Assembly (NCBI GenBank): GCA_900537125.1
Contig: UNRJ01000005.1
Coordinates: 1 to 64,000 of the forward strand
Origin: Rhodobacteraceae bacterium Alg238-R152
Lineage (GTDB): Bacteria > Pseudomonadota > Alphaproteobacteria > Rhodobacterales > Rhodobacteraceae
DNA: 64,000 bases
Direction: 5' to 3'
Made by a program: the position numbers and the translations under genes. Numbering within the stretch: the first letter of the stretch is position 1; each line of letters begins with the position of its first letter. Below the pieces are notes generated by a model. The model was not told the DNA's origin. It was given only the letters and a program-made list of their open reading frames with translations, and searched no databases. This document shows positions 3,027-20,237 of the stretch, piece after piece.

Positions 3027-4412
3027 TTAATTCAGCGTGTTTTTATAGATCACGCCGTCTTTCATAATAATGCGCAATGTTTCTGGGCTGTCTGGTCGCG
3101 GGTCCGCGCCAAACCACTTGTCGCCGGTCCCAACCACAGAGAAGTCTTCCAAAGGATTACCGTCAATCAGCAGGATATCTGCATAGGCGCCCTCCTCGAT
3201 CACGCCCAGCTTGCCGGCAGTGTAAGGGTTGGTGAAATCACCAGACAGTCCAACCAATTCGCCACCAACCGAAGTCAGCGTTACCAGTGACGCATAGGGC
3301 CCAAAAAAGTCATTGTTCAGCTTTTTCTCATAAGCCACTTGAATATTGCAGGCGGTAACAGACCCCACACAATCAGTTTGGAACGCGCGTTTGACCGGGC
3401 ATTCCTGCATGTTGGGAATGTAGTTTGCAAAGGTTGCAGAAGCCGATTTTGCTTTGGCCAGACTGCTCGGCACGCTAGCAACAGCTGGAATCTCTAACAG
3501 GCCAGGGTCAAAGGCCGTCAGATTGGTTGTAATAAACGCACCCTTTGCATTCATCACTTCGGCAATTTCGCAATCAAATGAAAACCCGTGCTCAATTGAC
3601 ATCACACCGGCCTCCAAGGCGCTCAGGATCGCCTCCTTGCGATAGGAGTGCGCCATGACATAGCTGCCATATTCTTCAGCCACCTGAACGGCCGCTTCGA
3701 TCTCTTCGGTTGAGCCAGCCAACAATTGCCAAGGATCAAACGCAGACACCACGCCTCCGGATTGCATGTACTTTAACTGGGTTGCCCCCATGCGAAAGTT
3801 GTTGCGGCCAAACTTTTGTACATCCCCCACATTGTCCGCCTCCTGTGCCATGTTTAGACGACCAAAGTTGGTGGATGCACCGGGAGGCGAGGTGAAATTT
3901 GCAAAATCAGCATGACCGCCGCGCGTGCCAATAAAAGCGGCTGACGGAAAATATCGGGGGCCAAGGATTTGTCCGCTATCAATGGCACGGCGCAGTCCTC
4001 CATTGCCGCCACCTGCATCACGCACAGTCGTAAAACCCTGCATGAGGTACATCTCAGCCATTTTGCTCCCGTGAATAGCAAAGTCTTCCCAGGTCGAATT
4101 TGCTTCCATCGCAGGAATGCTTGGCCCCATCAGCATCAAATGCGCGTGGGCTTCCACGAACCCCGGCGTCAATGTGCGTCCACCGCCGTCAATCACTGTG
4201 GCATCCGGCGCATCAATCGCCTCTGTACTCACAGCTTTGATCAGATTGCCCTCTATTAGCACCGACGCGTTCTCAATCCGCGCTTCATTCACTCCATCAA
4301 ACACATGCACATTTTTGAAAAGTGTTTGTGGAACAGCATCTTGTGCTGCAAGAGGGGTGCCAAACACTCCGACGACGGCTGACATAAGACCTGATAAAAA
4401 CCGGCTAGACAT
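3027..4412 (-). CDS. Secreted metal-dependent amidohydrolase (imidazolonepropionase/prolidase-like)
   Basis: This is a 461-residue amidohydrolase-superfamily enzyme with an N-terminal signal peptide (about residues 1-23, cleaving after PLAAQ), so it is probably periplasmic. The metal-binding HAH pair sits at His89/His91 in TPGFVEAHAHLMLMG. Further candidate ligands are in YVMAHSYRKEA and SIEHGFSFD, and the C-terminus has the usual ADILLIDGNPL strand. The start at 4412 has a GGGAG ribosome binding site; the longer frame upstream would spoil the signal peptide. The usual GTD aspartate appears only as QTDCVG. Close relatives hydrolyse Xaa-Pro dipeptides or cyclic imides, but the substrate here is unknown. 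It is divergent from the AraC-type regulator gene. Confidence 0.75.
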   Translation of the reverse strand: MSSRFLSGLMSAVVGVFGTPLAAQDAVPQTLFKNVHVFDGVNEARIENASVLIEGNLIKAVSTEAIDAPDATVIDGGGRTLTPGFVEAHAHLMLMGPSIPAMEANSTWEDFAIHGSKMAEMYLMQGFTTVRDAGGGNGGLRRAIDSGQILGPRYFPSAAFIGTRGGHADFANFTSPPGASTNFGRLNMAQEADNVGDVQKFGRNNFRMGATQLKYMQSGGVVSAFDPWQLLAGSTEEIEAAVQVAEEYGSYVMAHSYRKEAILSALEAGVMSIEHGFSFDCEIAEVMNAKGAFITTNLTAFDPGLLEIPAVASVPSSLAKAKSASATFANYIPNMQECPVKRAFQTDCVGSVTACNIQVAYEKKLNNDFFGPYASLVTLTSVGGELVGLSGDFTNPYTAGKLGVIEEGAYADILLIDGNPLEDFSVVGTGDKWFGADPRPDSPETLRIIMKDGVIYKNTLN

Positions 4413-13174: not shown

Positions 13175-14137
13175 TTAAACCTGCGAGCGTTGCGTGCCCG
13201 TGGGGATCACCTCGTATCCGGGCTCTTCCGGTTCGTCATCCAACATCTCCGGTGGGAAACCGGGCGCACGCACTGAGAGGCCGGTGGCGTCTTCCAGTCG
13301 CTTGATGATGTTGGGGCTGAGCTCTCGTTCGCCATAACGGGCGATGGCGTCGTCAAACATCGAGATCATCAGCGGGTTGAGTTCGAGCGGCACCCCTGCC
13401 CTGTCGGCGACCTCCTGAAACAGGCCGATGTCCTTTTTGACCAAATCCATGGTGAAGGAGATGTCTCGCGAGCCGTTCAGGATGACCTGGCTTTCGGTCT
13501 CGTGGCTGAAGGAATTGCCGGAGCTGATGCGGATCGCCTCATAAGCGGTGTTAAGGTCCATGCCCGCCGCTTTGCATGTGGTGAGGGCTTCGGCGGAGGC
13601 CACAAGATGGGCCGTGGCGAGGTAGTTGGTCACCACCTTCAGCACAGATGCAGAGCCAAGCGGGCCGGTGTGCAAGATGCGGCGGCCCATGGTGGTTAGA
13701 AGTGGCAGGATGCGCTCAAAGGTTTCGCGGTCGCAGCCTGCGAAGATCGCAATATTTCCGGTGTCGGCACGATGGCAGCCACCGGAGACAGGGCAATCCA
13801 CCGCTGTGCCGCCGCGTTCGATCACCAGAGCACCGAGGCGTTTGGCCTCAGCTTCGTCCGTGGTGGACATCTCCATCCAGATTTTGCCCTTTGTGACCTC
13901 GGGCAGCATCTCTTGTATCACCGCATCGGAGGCGGCGGGGGATGGCAGGCAAGTGATGACCGCATCACAGAGGCGCATCATTTCGGCCGGGCCAGAGACC
14001 GGTTTGGCCCCTGCGGCAGTTTTTTCCGCCACCAGATCGGGGTTAAGGTCATGCACATAGAGGTCTTTGCCGTTGCGCAGCAGGCTGCCGGAAAGTTTGC
14101 CGCCGACATTGCCCAATCCGATGAAGCCGATTTTCAT
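13175..14137 (-). CDS. NAD(P)-dependent oxidoreductase, 3-hydroxyisobutyrate dehydrogenase family
   Basis: The 320-residue beta-hydroxyacid dehydrogenase has the dinucleotide motif IGFIGLGNVGGKLSGSL at the N-terminus, the substrate loop DCPVSGGCHRADTGN near residues 115-128, and the catalytic-lysine helix SVLKVVTNYLATAHLV. The C-terminal tail after about residue 290 is acidic and longer than usual. It is the last gene of the reverse-strand catabolic set starting at 17585, separated by 83 bp from the racemase-like gene. It probably oxidises a 2- or 3-hydroxy acid produced in that pathway. Confidence 0.82.
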   Translation of the reverse strand: MKIGFIGLGNVGGKLSGSLLRNGKDLYVHDLNPDLVAEKTAAGAKPVSGPAEMMRLCDAVITCLPSPAASDAVIQEMLPEVTKGKIWMEMSTTDEAEAKRLGALVIERGGTAVDCPVSGGCHRADTGNIAIFAGCDRETFERILPLLTTMGRRILHTGPLGSASVLKVVTNYLATAHLVASAEALTTCKAAGMDLNTAYEAIRISSGNSFSHETESQVILNGSRDISFTMDLVKKDIGLFQEVADRAGVPLELNPLMISMFDDAIARYGERELSPNIIKRLEDATGLSVRAPGFPPEMLDDEPEEPGYEVIPTGTQRSQV

Positions 14138-14220
14138 GACTGTACTCCCTGTTGTTGGTTTCAGCCTGCGCAGGGCGATGCAAACTGGCAGGCCTGATAC
14201 CGACAGAGAGGAGACGTTTT

Positions 14221-14964
14221 TTAGCTTTTGAGCAAACGGCCCGGTGCGGTGGGAGCCAGTTTGGCGCCGGAGAGCTTGGCCATATGCCAGGCAAGCGCGA
14301 GGTTGCTGCCAAACACTGGCTTGTCGAGGTCTGCTTCCAAGCCGTCGATAACATCCAGCGTTTGCAGGTTTGTGCAGCTCAGGAAGACCGCGTCAACGTC
14401 TTGATGACCCACCTGCAGGGCGGCAGCTTTCACGGAGGCGGCATCGATGCGGGCGACGTTTTCCTCACCTGCCTCGCCAAAAGACACTAAATGCGGCACG
14501 GCGATGCCTGCGGCTTCAAAGGCGTGCTTCACCGGCATGGAGACGCTTTCGACGTAGGGCGTGACCATGCTAAGGCGGGTGATGCCCAGCGCTTTGCAGG
14601 CGGCGATTGACGCGGTGAGCGGATCGGTTACGGCGGGTGTTTGCACGCCTTGTTTGACGAGATTTGCAACTTTTGTGGCACCAATCATGGTGGTGCCGGA
14701 GGTGCAGCCGTAGCCGACCACGTCGAAGTTTGCGGCGGGCGGGAAGAGGGACGCGCTGGCGGGCAGGGTTTTGGACATCTGAAGCAACGTGTCTTGGGTG
14801 ACTTCCGGCTCAGAGGGCACGCGGCTGGTGTAGAGGGAGAGATCGCGGGACGGGAACAGGCGGCGGAAGTCTTGTTCCAGCGTTTCGTCGAATTTGAGCA
14901 CAATCAGGCCCAGGGTGGTTTGTCCAGCGGCCGGGGTGCCTAGGGTGAAGGGGACGGTCTTCAT
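14221..14964 (-). CDS. Asp/Glu racemase superfamily protein (maleate isomerase/EutA-like)
   Basis: The 247-residue protein of the Asp/Glu/hydantoin racemase superfamily has two cysteine motifs, GYGCTSGTTMIG near residue 90 and FLSCTNLQTLDVID near residue 195. They form the usual pair of catalytic cysteines in maleate cis-trans isomerases, arylmalonate decarboxylases and EutA. A GAGGT site precedes the ATG, and the gene starts 5 bp after the M24 hydrolase stop. EutA of hydroxyectoine degradation belongs to the same superfamily and has similar neighbours. Substrate specificity is not deducible. Confidence 0.75.
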   Translation of the reverse strand: MKTVPFTLGTPAAGQTTLGLIVLKFDETLEQDFRRLFPSRDLSLYTSRVPSEPEVTQDTLLQMSKTLPASASLFPPAANFDVVGYGCTSGTTMIGATKVANLVKQGVQTPAVTDPLTASIAACKALGITRLSMVTPYVESVSMPVKHAFEAAGIAVPHLVSFGEAGEENVARIDAASVKAAALQVGHQDVDAVFLSCTNLQTLDVIDGLEADLDKPVFGSNLALAWHMAKLSGAKLAPTAPGRLLKS

Positions 14965-14969
14965 AGGCG

Positions 14970-16127
14970 TTACCTCAGAATGGGAAGGGATGCGGCGGCG
15001 CGGGTGGACAGGAGTTCCGGGCCGGTGTCGCGCAGGACGATGTTTTCTTCGTGTACTTGGAACACGCCGGGGGCGATTTCGACGCCTGGCTCCAGGGTGA
15101 GCACCATGCCTGCGCGCAGCTCGGTGTGGTCATGCGGCGTGAAGCTGGGCCATTCGGTGAGCGTGATGCCCAGACCATGGCCGAGGCGACCGCCGCCGGG
15201 TGTCGCGCCCTGCTTGGTCAGGTTATCGACAAACATGGCATACACGTCGCTGGCCTTGTGGCCGGGGCGCAGCGTGGTGAGCACATGGTCAGTGACTTGA
15301 TAGAGCTGATCATAAGCGCGCTTGGCGGCGTCATCGGCGCGAGTGATTGCGACGTTGCGATCAAAGTCACAGAAATAACCATCCAACACCGCGCCGGTGT
15401 CGAGCATAAGGATGTCGCCAGCCATGAGGCGTTGATCTGTCGCCGGGGAGATCACATCGCCGTAACCGCCCTGCCCTGCGCCGCCTGCTGTGTAGCTGAC
15501 CCAATCGGCGCCTTCCTCAAGCAAAATACGCTGAAAGTCTCGGAAGACCTGTCCGTGAGTGGTGTTTTCGGAAGCGTATTCGGAAATGCGAGAGAAGGTG
15601 CGGTCGGCAATGCGGCACGCATCGCGAATTTTGGCAACTTCACCCTCGGATTTGATTTCGCGGGTGCGGTGCACGGTGTTGGTGGCGTCAACAAAGCGAC
15701 GCGGAGCGAGGGCTTGGGTCAGCTGGTGGTAGTCCGCAAGTGGCATGCGCAGGTGGGTTTCTAAGCCCATGGGCAGGCCAACGGTGCCGGTGTCTGGCAC
15801 GAGATCAGCGAGGGTTTCTGTGAGCAGACTGACGCCGTCATCACCCGGGAATGGCGCGTCCCAGGTGCGGATATCCGTTAGCCAGGTTTTGGACATCAGG
15901 TCTGCACCAATCGAGGGGATCACGGCGATGGGGTCGCCTTGCGCCGGGACAATCACAAACCACGGACGGGCGGGGCTTTCCCAGAAGCGTGTGAGAAATC
16001 CGGTGGTGTAGAAGATATCTGCCTGCGAGGTCAGCAGGAGTGCCGCTTCGCCTGCTTTTGCCATAGCAGTTTGCAGGCGGCTAATGCGCGCGCGAAACTC
16101 TTCCGGTGGGAAGCCGCGCTTAGGCAT
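14970..16127 (-). CDS. M24-family hydrolase (Xaa-Pro peptidase/creatinase/DoeA-like)
   Basis: The 385-residue protein has an N-terminal creatinase domain (FYTTGFLTRFWESPARPW near residue 45) and a pita-bread metallohydrolase domain. The metal ligands are visible: Asp in MLDTGAVLDGYFCDFDRN, His in GRLGHGLGITLTEWPS, Glu in VLTLEPGVEI and Glu in QVHEENIV. The ATG at 16127 overlaps the end of the PLP-lyase gene by 8 bp. Family members cleave Xaa-Pro peptides, creatine or ectoine (DoeA, about 400 aa). The neighbours make a non-peptidase role plausible, which is inference. Confidence 0.8.
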   Translation of the reverse strand: MPKRGFPPEEFRARISRLQTAMAKAGEAALLLTSQADIFYTTGFLTRFWESPARPWFVIVPAQGDPIAVIPSIGADLMSKTWLTDIRTWDAPFPGDDGVSLLTETLADLVPDTGTVGLPMGLETHLRMPLADYHQLTQALAPRRFVDATNTVHRTREIKSEGEVAKIRDACRIADRTFSRISEYASENTTHGQVFRDFQRILLEEGADWVSYTAGGAGQGGYGDVISPATDQRLMAGDILMLDTGAVLDGYFCDFDRNVAITRADDAAKRAYDQLYQVTDHVLTTLRPGHKASDVYAMFVDNLTKQGATPGGGRLGHGLGITLTEWPSFTPHDHTELRAGMVLTLEPGVEIAPGVFQVHEENIVLRDTGPELLSTRAAASLPILR

Positions 16128-17172
16128 CTTCGGGGCCTTCGGAGACAAAGCACAACACGCGGGCGTTGGCGGGTAGATCCGGGCGTTTCAGGAGCGCAGC
16201 GGCGACACCGGCAACACCCGAAGGTGTGCAGGCGATGGTGTGGGACTTGAGCGTTTCGACCGTGTCCTGCGCCTCTTGCTCGGAGATGGTGACGAAACAA
16301 TCCGCGTCCATCGCAAGACCATTGAGCGCCACCATGGAGGCGGTTTTGCAATCGAGCCGTCCCATGTCAGACACGGGGCCGGTGGTGTCGATCAATTGAC
16401 CAGCGCGGATGGATTCGATCAGCGCGGGGGCAGCCTCGGGCTCTACCACAGTGATATGTGGCGCGTCGCCCCACGTTGCACGGGCATTGGCGGCGACAGC
16501 GGCGGCGAGCCCTCCTACGCCAGCTTGCAAGAAGATGTGCGTGGGAGGTGCCGAGATTTGCGAAGCAGCTTCAGAGGCCATTTGCAAATAGCCTTCCATG
16601 ACGCGGTAGCCGCTGTCCTCATAACCGTGCCATGTGCTGTCAGACAGCAAGGTCCAGCCGTTGTCCTTGGCGGCTTGCGCGGCGGCCTCCATGCTGGCCT
16701 CGTAGTCGTCACCGGCCCATGCAACGGTGGCGCCTTGGGCTTCGAGACGCTTGCCAAAGGCTTGCGGTACGGTGTGGGACAGGTAGATCACCGCCTTAGC
16801 CCCGAAGATGCGCGCGCCAGCGGCGACGGACATGCCGTGGTTGCCCGCCGACGCGGTGACATAAGTGCGGCCGGTCAAAGCGGTGGCCCAGTCGGCGGGT
16901 TCTATGCGGGCCGCGTCGTAAGCGATGGCGTAGGCGGCACCGAGGGCTTTGAAAGAGCCAAGCCCCATGCGGGAGCGTTCGTCTTTAACGTGGAAGCTGG
17001 CGACGCCCAGTGTGGCGGCGAGATCGGCCATGTCGCGCAAAGGGGTTTCGGCGTGGGCCGGGCACAGCGCGAGCAGTTTGGCGACGGCGGTGGTATCACG
17101 GCTTGGGAGGGTTTCGGATTGGCGGTTCGGCAAGCCGGTGCCGCGGTGAGGGTTTTGCAGGATATCAGTCAT
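16120..17172 (-). CDS. PLP-dependent lyase, diaminopropionate ammonia-lyase/threonine dehydratase-like
   Basis: The 350-residue fold-type II PLP enzyme has Lys75 in GLGSFKALGAAYA forming the Schiff base, the substrate loop TASAGNHGMSVAAG and the phosphate-binding QAGVGGLAAAV near residue 215. The SFKALGAAYA and QAGVG pattern is closest to diaminopropionate ammonia-lyases, though the protein is shorter than the 400-residue E. coli YgeX. EutB of hydroxyectoine catabolism is another relative. It overlaps the thioesterase gene by 4 bp (ATGA). It probably deaminates a hydroxy- or amino-substituted amino acid to a 2-oxo acid. Confidence 0.82.
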   Translation of the reverse strand: MTDILQNPHRGTGLPNRQSETLPSRDTTAVAKLLALCPAHAETPLRDMADLAATLGVASFHVKDERSRMGLGSFKALGAAYAIAYDAARIEPADWATALTGRTYVTASAGNHGMSVAAGARIFGAKAVIYLSHTVPQAFGKRLEAQGATVAWAGDDYEASMEAAAQAAKDNGWTLLSDSTWHGYEDSGYRVMEGYLQMASEAASQISAPPTHIFLQAGVGGLAAAVAANARATWGDAPHITVVEPEAAPALIESIRAGQLIDTTGPVSDMGRLDCKTASMVALNGLAMDADCFVTISEQEAQDTVETLKSHTIACTPSGVAGVAAALLKRPDLPANARVLCFVSEGPEDA

Positions 17173-17585
17173 GGCTCGGATTGGCTTTCGAGTAAGGTTT
17201 TGAGACGAGACACCTCCCCTGCCCGCATACGGCCGTCACGATGTTCAAACAGCGCGCGCACCTCGGTGCCTTCAAACGCCAGTTCACCACCGACATAACC
17301 GCGATGGATCAGGCGGTAGGATTTGGCTGACCACTCGGTGATCTCCATGCGGATGGTGAGCGCATCGCCATCGGTCAGTGGGCGGCGGTATTTGGCGTGG
17401 GTTTCCATCAGGCCCAGTCCCACAGCGTCGAGGCGTTCACAGACAGCGGCATGGCCGCCGTACTGCTGCAAAAAGCGCTGAAACGTGCCGTCCATCCAGC
17501 GGTAGATGTTGGGGTAGTAAACAATGCCCGCCGGATCACAGTCGCCAAAAACAACGTTGTGGTGGTTTTCGAAACTAAAAGGCAT
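17169..17585 (-). CDS. Hot-dog acyl-CoA thioesterase (4HBT/YbgC type)
   Basis: The 138-residue hot-dog protein has the signature FGDCDPAGIVYYPNIYRWMD at residues 13-32, where the Asp of DPAGIVYYP is catalytic in 4-hydroxybenzoyl-CoA thioesterases. The start is placed at 17585 (MPFSFENHHNV), because the longer frame upstream is out of keeping with the family length. It is the first gene of the catabolic operon and overlaps the lyase by 4 bp. It probably hydrolyses a short or aromatic acyl-CoA; its fit with the other enzymes is unclear. Confidence 0.83.
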   Translation of the reverse strand: MPFSFENHHNVVFGDCDPAGIVYYPNIYRWMDGTFQRFLQQYGGHAAVCERLDAVGLGLMETHAKYRRPLTDGDALTIRMEITEWSAKSYRLIHRGYVGGELAFEGTEVRALFEHRDGRMRAGEVSRLKTLLESQSEP

Positions 17586-17772: not shown

Positions 17773-18237
17773 ATGACCGCCAACTTGGACGACATCGACC
17801 GCCGCCTGCTCACCGCCGTTCAGAAGAACAACCGGCTGACCGCGGATGAGTTGGGCGAGATTGCGGGCATCTCGCGCTCCGCTGTGCAGCGGCGGCTGAA
17901 GCGGTTTCGTGATGAAGGGATTGTGGAGGCGGATATCTCTGTGGTCTCTGCCAAAGCTGTGGGGCGGCCGATGACCTTTGTGGTGGAGGTCGAGATGGAG
18001 CGCGAGCGCACCGACCTGCTGGATGAGTTCCGTCGCTCGATGCTCAAACTCGATGATGTGCAGCAGTGTTACTACGTCACTGGTCAGGCGGATTTTATTC
18101 TGGTGGTGACCGCCCCGGACATGACCGCCTATGAGGAGTTCAGCCGCCACGTGTTCAACGACAACCCCAACATTCGTCGGTTTCACAGCAATGTGGTGAT
18201 TGATCGGGTGAAGGCGGGGTTACAGGTGCCGGTGTGA
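17773..18237 (+). CDS. Lrp/AsnC-family transcriptional regulator
   Basis: The 154-residue protein has an N-terminal helix-turn-helix (DDIDRRLLTAVQKNNRLTAD, then ISRSAVQRRLKRFRDEGIV) and a C-terminal RAM/AsnC ligand domain with YYVTGQADFILVVTAPDM. It is divergent from the five-gene catabolic operon with a gap of 187 bp. Lrp-type proteins typically sense amino acids, and the DoeX/AsnC regulators of ectoine genes are of this type. It is probably the local regulator of the operon. Confidence 0.9.
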   Translation: MTANLDDIDRRLLTAVQKNNRLTADELGEIAGISRSAVQRRLKRFRDEGIVEADISVVSAKAVGRPMTFVVEVEMERERTDLLDEFRRSMLKLDDVQQCYYVTGQADFILVVTAPDMTAYEEFSRHVFNDNPNIRRFHSNVVIDRVKAGLQVPV

Positions 18238-18262
18238 GGCGACGTGCCGGAGTTCGCAGGCG

Positions 18263-18403
18263 TTATGGAGCGATGGCCAAAGTATTGGGAAATGACTTGA
18301 GCACCAATAAAGCGCCGCCTGCCGCAATTGTTAAAAACACAAGGGCGACCTTCAGATCGCCCCACCAAGATTGTCTTTGCATGTAGTTTTTCATCCTCTT
18401 CAT
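18263..18403 (-). CDS. Small 46-aa single-pass membrane protein (paralogue A)
   Basis: The reverse-strand ORF encodes 46 residues starting MKRMKNYMQRQSWWGDLK, with a hydrophobic helix (VALVFLTIAAGGALLVL) and the tail SFPNTLAIAP. It aligns without gaps to the neighbouring 46-aa ORF at 18532-18672, with 14 identical positions. These include FL, IA, LV and the PNT...P tail. An ATG at 18394 is an alternative start. Preservation of length and tail in two adjacent ORFs argues that both are real. Function is unknown; it is predicted to sit in the inner membrane with a short basic cytoplasmic head. Confidence 0.6.
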   Translation of the reverse strand: MKRMKNYMQRQSWWGDLKVALVFLTIAAGGALLVLKSFPNTLAIAP

Positions 18404-18531
18404 GTCTGTTCTCGCGTTGTGACTACAGACAAGAGATGGTGGCGCCAACAGAGAGTTCATTCAGAAATCGCGACAGTGATTTGGGATGCGGCGCCACAAG
18501 CTAGGTTCGCCGTTTTTTGTATACAAGTGCC

Positions 18532-18672
18532 TCAGGGCCCGGCCTCAATGGTATTTGGCACCGTGTAGATCACTAAAGAGGCCACGCCGTAAGCAATGCC
18601 AAGAAACATGGCGGCCAGCATAATGTTGCGACAGAAATCGTGTTTCTCGCAGAATTTTTGAAAATGCCCCAT
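18532..18672 (-). CDS. Small 46-aa single-pass membrane protein (paralogue B)
   Basis: This is a 46-residue ORF with an AGGA site 7-8 nt before its ATG. It starts MGHFQKFCEKHDFCRN, continues with the helix IMLAAMFLGIAYGVASLVIY, and ends TVPNTIEAGP. Compared with its 46-aa neighbour it has two cysteines and a histidine in the head. Both run leftward, separated by 128 bp, so they may be co-transcribed. No known family is recognised. Confidence 0.6.
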   Translation of the reverse strand: MGHFQKFCEKHDFCRNIMLAAMFLGIAYGVASLVIYTVPNTIEAGP

Positions 18673-19411
18673 GATCGTTCCTAGTGCCAAGGTCCTGTTT
18701 GCCGTCAAACCCTCCCCAGGGCGCAAAACGCACAAACCAGACAAGTTACGCGGGCACCGTGCCGGTTTTAGTTGGAAAGCGACATGGGAATGGGGGGGAG
18801 GTGATCCCCAAAACCGGAGGTTGCGGGTAGCAGAATCCCTTCGCGCATGTCGCAATTCAGTAGGACAAAAAATCGACCAACAAACGCCTCCAACGGTCTG
18901 CGTATCCAAATAGTCCTAAGTACTAGTAGCCAGGTTTCGCTGTCCGCTGCCGCGGCTTCCGGCCTGCAACACATTTACAACTCTTCTCTTGCAGAAACCG
19001 TTGACGTTTTGGCAACCTTAAGGATATAGTTTGACTCGTAAATCATATAAAAGAAATGCATCTTTAATTACTCTCTAAGTGAACGGGGTATGTCATGATT
19101 AAGAAAATTCAATCATACGTTGTCGAAAACGGATGGTTTTTATGCACTATCTAACAGTCTGACCAAACTTCTTTTCCACAGTGCGCATGCCGGCCATTGC
19201 AAACGTAAAGCGATCTCGTAACAACTGGCTGGGATGAGTGGCAAGCCGCACCCGGAAAGTCAAAGTTTAACAAATTTCATACAGAAAGGAGAGCGTCGGC
19301 GCTCCGCAGTTTGCGCTGGACCAAGGCAAACGCAACAATTTTCGCGCCTTTTGTAATGTTATCTCATTTACTTGTGTGTTTCAGCCGATACTTGCCAAGG
19401 ACGAGGTGCAA
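18673..19411. other. AT-rich gene-poor region with a promoter-like element and a mini-ORF
   Basis: No conventional gene is visible here. A sigma70-like promoter reads TTGACG (19001-19006), 18-bp spacer, TATAGT (19025-19030). A 19-codon ORF (19095-19154, MIKKIQSYVVENGWFLCTI) follows it. The region could encode a small RNA or leader peptide, or be the remains of a lost gene. Confidence 0.3.
19001..19030 (+). promoter_or_regulatory. Sigma70-like promoter
   Basis: The -35 hexamer TTGACG and -10 hexamer TATAGT are separated by 18 bp in an AT-rich context. The next recognisable gene is the SnoaL-like ORF about 380 bp downstream, so the transcript would have a long leader or a small RNA. Confidence 0.35.
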
Positions 19412-19840
19412 ATGTCCAAAGAACTATTAATAGAATGGATTGAAGATGGTTGGCTCATGGGTAACCAGGCCACCATAGAAAGAATACTGCCAGCAAATTT
19501 TTCCGTCTCAGGCTTCTCGAACGCCGAAAATTTTCCCAAATCAGATTTTTCAGAACTCGTAGATCTGTTTAGAAAGATTACCGGGCCAGGGCGGATCAAT
19601 CTAACCAACTTGATTGAGGATCCCCCCTGGTTTGCCGCGAAGTTCCTCTTAACCGCACGCCCTCCTTTACAGTCAAGCAATGTAGAAATCGACGTCATGC
19701 TGTTGGCCAAGTTCGAAGATGGCGTAATGACAGAACATCACACTGCATTTGACTACTTTTCCCTGTTTTCACAACTGGGACAACTCCCCCCAAATGCGTT
19801 GGAGCACTGTCTTACAGGGGAACGCCTAACTTGGAGTTGA
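19412..19840 (+). CDS. SnoaL/NTF2-like small protein
   Basis: The 142-residue product starts MSKELLIEWIEDGWLMGNQA (start chosen at 19412 for its GAGG site). An alpha helix comes first and is followed by beta strands with VDLFRKITGPGRINLTNLIE and IDVMLLAKFEDGVMTEHHTA. The tail is FDYFSLFSQLGQLPPNALEH. The pattern fits SnoaL-like/NTF2-fold proteins, which are cyclases, hydrolases or ligand sensors. It overlaps the PilZ-like ORF by about 10 bp. Codon use is visibly AT-richer than the neighbours, suggesting transfer. Confidence 0.6.
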   Translation: MSKELLIEWIEDGWLMGNQATIERILPANFSVSGFSNAENFPKSDFSELVDLFRKITGPGRINLTNLIEDPPWFAAKFLLTARPPLQSSNVEIDVMLLAKFEDGVMTEHHTAFDYFSLFSQLGQLPPNALEHCLTGERLTWS

Positions 19841-20145
19841 TTGGAAATCGGCGGCATCTAGACAATCGCAAATCGGGAAAACGACATGAAAAACAATTGG
19901 CGTGCGAAATTCAGCTTGAGAACCATTCCTTGGGCGCCCAGACTGTGGACATAGGCGCTCATGGTGCATGCATCGAAGCCAGCCTCAATGTTCACAAAGT
20001 GGTCTCTCAGAGCGAAATTCGTGTAATTCTCCCTGGGCCTATATCTCGAAAAGCAAAAATTGTTTGGAGTTCCGGCACCCGAATGGGGTTAAATTTTGCC
20101 ATTCCCCTTAGGACGTCGCAGCTTGAGGCTCTCCTCAGAAAGTAA
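19831..20145 (+). CDS. PilZ-like domain protein
   Basis: The product is about 100 residues with a basic head (NRKSGKRHEK), a DxGxxG loop (VDIGAHGACIEA, like the PilZ D/NxSxxG motif) and the terminal strand AKIVWSSGTRMGLNFAIPL, which is typical of PilZ domains. PilZ proteins bind cyclic di-GMP; the N-terminal Arg motif here is only approximate, so binding is uncertain. The TTG start at 19831 overlaps the SnoaL-like gene and other starts are possible. Composition is AT-rich like its partner. Confidence 0.55.
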   Translation: MELIGNRRHLDNRKSGKRHEKQLACEIQLENHSLGAQTVDIGAHGACIEASLNVHKVVSQSEIRVILPGPISRKAKIVWSSGTRMGLNFAIPLRTSQLEALLRK

Positions 20146-20187
20146 TCCTTCGCAGCACAACTCGAATTGAAGCAATGAAAATACAAA

Positions 20188-20213
20188 AAAGCCGCCCCTT
20201 TCAGGGCGGCTTT
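20188..20213. terminator. Bidirectional terminator
   Basis: A perfect 10-bp stem, AAAGCCGCCC (20188-20197) and GGGCGGCTTT (20204-20213), with A and T tracts on both sides, lies between the convergent ends of the PilZ-like gene and icd. It would serve both strands. Confidence 0.9.
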
Positions 20214-20237
20214 CTTGTTTCTCAGCTCAGTTGAAGC

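Follow-up and report, generated by a model that had tools for sequence, protein, structure and literature searches.

Two related genes for predicted small membrane proteins, kept side by side under purifying selection in Shimia

Two short open reading frames, equal in length, lie next to each other on the reverse strand of a 64,000-nucleotide stretch of the genome of Rhodobacteraceae bacterium Alg238-R152 (the window; the genome is called G000 below). The question that they raise is whether such frames are genes and, if so, what kind of protein they encode. The two frames, A and B, are listed with the features around them in Table 1. Judged by sequence comparison across genomes, both are real genes under selection, related to each other and found in tandem in several species of the marine Shimia.

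Table 1. The small-protein genes of the window and the sequence features around them
Feature	Position	Strand	Remarks
Lrp/AsnC-type regulator gene	17773..18237	+	Pfam AsnC_trans_reg; convergent fixed neighbour, context only
Gene A (A2 subtype)	18263..18403	-	46 aa and stop; MKRMKNYMQRQSWWGDLKVALVFLTIAAGGALLVLKSFPNTLAIAP
Candidate start-codon hairpin of A mRNA	18401..18431	-	TGTCTGT...ACAGACATG
Shine-Dalgarno region of A	18404..18413	-	GAGAACAGAC preceding ATG; little or no variation among A genes
Promoter-like block of A	18433..18478	-	CACTGTC-N4-TTTCTGAATG ... CGCYACCATCT; conserved
Gene B	18532..18672	-	46 aa and stop; MGHFQKFCEKHDFCRNIMLAAMFLGIAYGVASLVIYTVPNTIEAGP
Shine-Dalgarno of B	18677..18682	-	AGGAAC
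Private bipartite element of B	18784..18823	-	CAACYTCCGGTTYTGGGGA-N13-ATTCCCAT

First, the likeness between A and B exceeds what short frames share by chance. The preliminary description had reported two reverse-strand frames of 46 codons that align without gaps at 14 identical residues and had held a chance pairing to be unlikely; both frames and the identity count were reproduced. The ungapped alignment scores 66 with BLOSUM62; the mean was -15.9 (sd 14.2) after shuffling in which the compositions of the N-terminal, membrane and C-terminal parts were each kept apart, and none of 100,000 such shuffles reached the observed score. The matching tails (PNTLAIAP and PNTIEAGP) were found as described, and the single hydrophobic helix said to be common to both appears as one hydrophobic stretch, residues 17-35, in every member of the family. 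In tblastn searches of their own genome, A and B retrieved only each other (E 0.02-0.03), so that they are the sole paralogues there.

Relatives were found in 7 of 25 Shimia genomes, as 15 copies that represent 14 distinct proteins, one of the copies being ectopic. G000, G303, G316, G310 and G305 carry A and B; G309 has A, B and A at the locus and one ectopic A on another contig; G301 has a single gene. Along the coding strand the array reads B-A, A-B or A-B-A, and thus both paralogue types are held by all six multi-copy loci. Gene A of the window is 93% identical to its orthologue in G309 and 83% to the ectopic copy, and gene B is 91% identical to that of G303, 84% to G316, 61% to G309, 52% to G310 and 43% to G305. 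The site is constant. The pair had been placed between an Lrp gene and a gene-poor stretch, and it does follow the Lrp/AsnC gene, with the next apparent gene at about position 19412; among carriers the family lies between this convergent gene and the gene of monomeric isocitrate dehydrogenase (masked in G310 by the crude gene caller). The lrp orthologue is present in 11 of the 25 Shimia genomes, all seven carriers included, and the four that have it without the family hold other genes at that place.

Codon-level comparison shows the pattern expected of protein-coding frames. Ka/Ks is mostly 0.05-0.3 among family pairs, with changes concentrated at third codon positions; between B of G000 and of G303, 16 of 19 changes fall there (binomial p = 7e-6; Ks 0.82, Ka 0.04). 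Gene B has Ka/Ks of 0.05-0.06 against its two nearest orthologues, and gene A 0.22-0.26 against its two orthologues in G309. One pair, the two A2 paralogues of G309, is an outlier at 0.64. No frameshift or internal stop was found in the homologous loci of the Shimia carriers; a TGA flagged in one A gene of G309 is an earlier natural end that gives 41 residues. The third-position excess, the low Ka/Ks and the lack of frameshifts thus mark the family as protein-coding genes under purifying selection. The preliminary description of A and B as genes was borne out in this respect, since frames are kept and synonymous bias is strong in the six further Shimia genomes. Family members are mostly 45-46 residues long, and B stays at 46 while its start codon varies among ATG, GTG and TTG (TTG in G309). 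The 46-codon start of A is backed by the conserved GAGAACAGAC-ATG and by upstream stops in G305 and G301. Longer starts upstream (65 and 125 aa) were dropped because they are not conserved; for the 65-aa extension of A, G305 has an in-frame stop with no later start codon and G301 a stop just before the start. The A2 gene common to G309 and G000 has a Ks of 0.16, against 0.45 for lrp; this would fit a horizontal origin, although in so short a gene it is no more than suggestive.

Outside Shimia, a profile of all members matched nothing convincingly, whether in 395 genomes that sample the family at about one per genus or in 391 genomes of the order. A GTDB-wide scan, which used the A-type motif W[CW]GDL[KR]VA alone, returned only Shimia-type relatives and one spurious match, and no relatives were found in IMG/VR (A type only) or PLSDB. 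Individual matches were rejected on inspection: that in G248 is antisense to a 203-aa ORF, that in G320 is an unrelated hydrophobic ORF, that in G140 is part of a membrane ORF of 214 aa, and that in Frigidibacter falls within a longer ORF. Pfam, NCBIfam, PHROGs, PADLOC and PDB sequences gave nothing above noise (in PHROGs, the best E was 0.01, to a PHROG of unknown function). Pfam DUF6893 and DUF7396 are likewise short with a single hydrophobic segment, but their scores of 13.1 and 14.1 bits are far under the curated cut-offs of 24.6 and 27 (best E over all 14 members 0.013-0.065), so that A and B are not members. Nothing on the family was found in the literature on Shimia or roseobacter small membrane proteins. 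The earlier suggestion of an undescribed small-protein family therefore gains support, as no library family matches and relatives exist in six further Shimia genomes; the family is undescribed in the searched libraries and, to date, restricted to Shimia.

Small single-span membrane proteins are a well-known kind of protein, and what is new here is the Shimia-restricted A/B family. It offers a well-controlled case in which selection at the codon level confirmed a genus-restricted small-protein family that had first been recognized in raw sequence. Since it is also present in the genome of a cultured strain, Shimia sagamensis DSM 29734 (G303), it is not restricted to metagenome assemblies. It provides a clean system for the origin, duplication and divergence of new small membrane proteins and for their gain of regulatory sites of their own.

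The architecture of the proteins is simple. AlphaFold predicts helices at residues 2-10 and 12-37 with moderate confidence (mean pLDDT 76.7). The net charge of the N-terminus is 0 to +4, mostly positive, and that of the C-terminus -1 to +1, where the sole positive residue is K36, which the A2 subtype has at the end of its helix. Along the membrane helix, sequence entropy is periodic at about 100 degrees when all members are taken together (p about 0.001 to 0.009, depending on the stretch) and in A alone (p 0.003-0.05, likewise stretch-dependent); it is not periodic in B alone, for which the sequences are few and similar. Residue volume was examined as well and shows no periodicity along the helix. 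The conserved face consists of A20, F23, A27, A31 and V34, of which A31 and V34 are invariant, and residue 27 is always small. The single conserved face suggests that the helix packs on a specific partner helix instead of disrupting membranes in a generic way.

The noncoding blocks that adjoin the genes are strongly conserved as well. A genes have in common CACTGTC-N4-WTTCTGAATG ... CGCTACCAT at a near-fixed distance before the start, and its core, ACTGTC-N4-WTTCTRAA, also precedes the single gene of G301; this block is a putative promoter. The element of B is private to it. It begins 140-154 nt before the start codon with internal spacing fixed in all six B loci, and an exact match of CAACYTCCGGTTYTGGGGA occurs once per genome in the six B carriers, upstream of B, and in none of the 19 other Shimia genomes. 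The element contains an imperfect dyad made up of TGGGGA and TTCCCA, whose centres are separated by 20 bp, an arrangement that may mark a regulator site. A conserved terminator-like hairpin, GGGGCG-N7-CGCCCC, stands 3' of the A1-subtype genes, so that A1 is probably its own transcript.

Taken together, these features are best explained, tentatively and with a probability of roughly 0.45, if A and B are a pair of membrane regulator or accessory peptides. They would be single-span inner-membrane proteins of mostly 45-46 residues, complementary paralogues specific to Shimia. The positively charged N-terminus would stay in the cytoplasm, the short first helix would lead into the membrane helix, and the conserved face would pack on a partner helix, which may belong to the other paralogue or to a larger membrane protein that A and B would modulate. 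They would then act much as described small membrane regulators or accessory subunits do, and their expression would probably be tied to a specific condition, sensed by way of the B element. This reading is supported by purifying selection on both A and B, by the presence of both types in all six multi-copy loci whatever their order, by the private conserved element before B, by the helix-face periodicity with its invariant and small residues, and by the predicted helices together with an N-terminal charge and a near-neutral C-terminus. CydX, KdpF and YohP are bacterial examples of such small single-span regulators or accessory subunits. A and B resemble them in size, in the single helix, in the lack of catalytic residues and in genes that are often overlooked, and have what is expected of such proteins, a single span under protein-level selection. 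However, no sequence relation to them was found, and A and B differ in forming a complementary pair of paralogues whose locus is fixed and adjoins no target complex. Against this reading, the helix-face signal is missing in B alone, and no partner protein could be identified, the neighbours being functionally unlinked; an XRE-type HTH gene of the same interval was rejected as partner, as it is missing from the carriers G000, G303 and G316. Because many Shimia genomes do not have the family, no widespread target can strictly depend on A and B.

The main rival, which we consider unlikely, is that A and B are type I toxin-like peptides, small, hydrophobic, tandem and prone to turnover, as Ldr, Ibs and Zor are, and restrained by an antisense or trans-acting small RNA and a 5' mRNA hairpin. 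Toxin-like peptides had been named among the possibilities in the preliminary description, beside stress and complex-assembly peptides. Hallmarks of membrane type I toxins are an antisense or complementary antitoxin RNA at the locus and overproduction that stops growth, which the antitoxin relieves. Like Ldr, Ibs, Zor and Hok, the A/B proteins have fewer than 60 residues and one predicted hydrophobic membrane helix, and their genes are narrowly distributed in tandem copies that are gained and lost, with an ectopic copy besides; Ldr genes are also found in tandem (PMC4147584). A candidate hairpin around the start codon in most A genes and the terminator-like hairpin after A1-subtype genes would also fit. 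The former, however, is replaced or weakened in three A genes and displays no covariation or compensatory changes. No sigma-70-like antisense promoter is conserved across orthologues, the single match inside B of the window not being kept in G303 or G316, and no Rfam antitoxin match lies above threshold near the two genes; an antitoxin RNA could still act in trans or have a promoter of another type. Moreover, cationic residues of membrane type I toxins are generally C-terminal (PMC8309996), whereas those of A and B are N-terminal, and A and B, unlike such toxins, are retained together as diverged types.

Somewhat more doubtful is a metal- or redox-responsive membrane peptide, in which a cytoplasmic C8-x2-H11-x2-C14 motif near the N-terminus (CRRHSWC, CEKHDFC) would serve as a metal site or a thiol-disulfide switch and would govern the membrane helix. 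C8 is present in 9, H11 in 10 and C14 in 11 of the 14 distinct members. In the A2 subtype they have disappeared jointly, with M/L, Q and W in their place, as if they worked as a set. However, A of the window belongs to this subtype and thus has none of them, B of G305 retains only H11 and C14, the protein of G301 only C14, and a motif of three residues is minimal and could be structural. Less probable again is a two-peptide membrane sensor born within the genus, in which A and B would form a hetero-oligomer through their common helix face, the cytoplasmic CxxHxxC site on B and most A proteins would gate it as a metal or thiol site, and a dedicated regulator would act on the B element. Secreted or antimicrobial, bacteriocin-like peptides with allelic turnover are very improbable: tandem, diverging paralogues in a variable interval would suit them, but the conserved neighbourhood has no immunity, transporter or modification gene, and selection is purifying, not diversifying. 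That A and B are accidental or decaying frames, kept by constraint on regulatory DNA or RNA such as the conserved noncoding blocks, is hardly credible, as the codon pattern, with Ka/Ks far below 1, largely refutes it and length is conserved despite the changing B starts.

The interval between lrp and the isocitrate dehydrogenase gene (18238-20237 in the window) is a turnover hot spot in Shimia. Its content differs among species and may be the array of small-protein genes, a gene for an XRE-type HTH protein that ends in a CSCCG tail, or genes of other kinds, some of them methyltransferase-like and sulfotransferase-like by eye. In the window it also encodes a 142-aa protein (19412-19840, + strand) that has no Pfam match and is 84-92% identical in G310 and G303. 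The ectopic A of G309 is accompanied by an apparent fragment of the lrp 3' end and adjoins another ORF that occurs in repeat (at 3953 and 9580), which, in this metagenome assembly, suggests duplication or transposition of a segment. On the other side of the Lrp/AsnC gene, 13175-17585 contains a catabolic-looking cluster (thioesterase-like, PALP enzyme, M24 peptidase, arylmalonate decarboxylase/racemase-like and 3-hydroxyisobutyrate dehydrogenase-like) that appears reminiscent of ectoine-degradation clusters.
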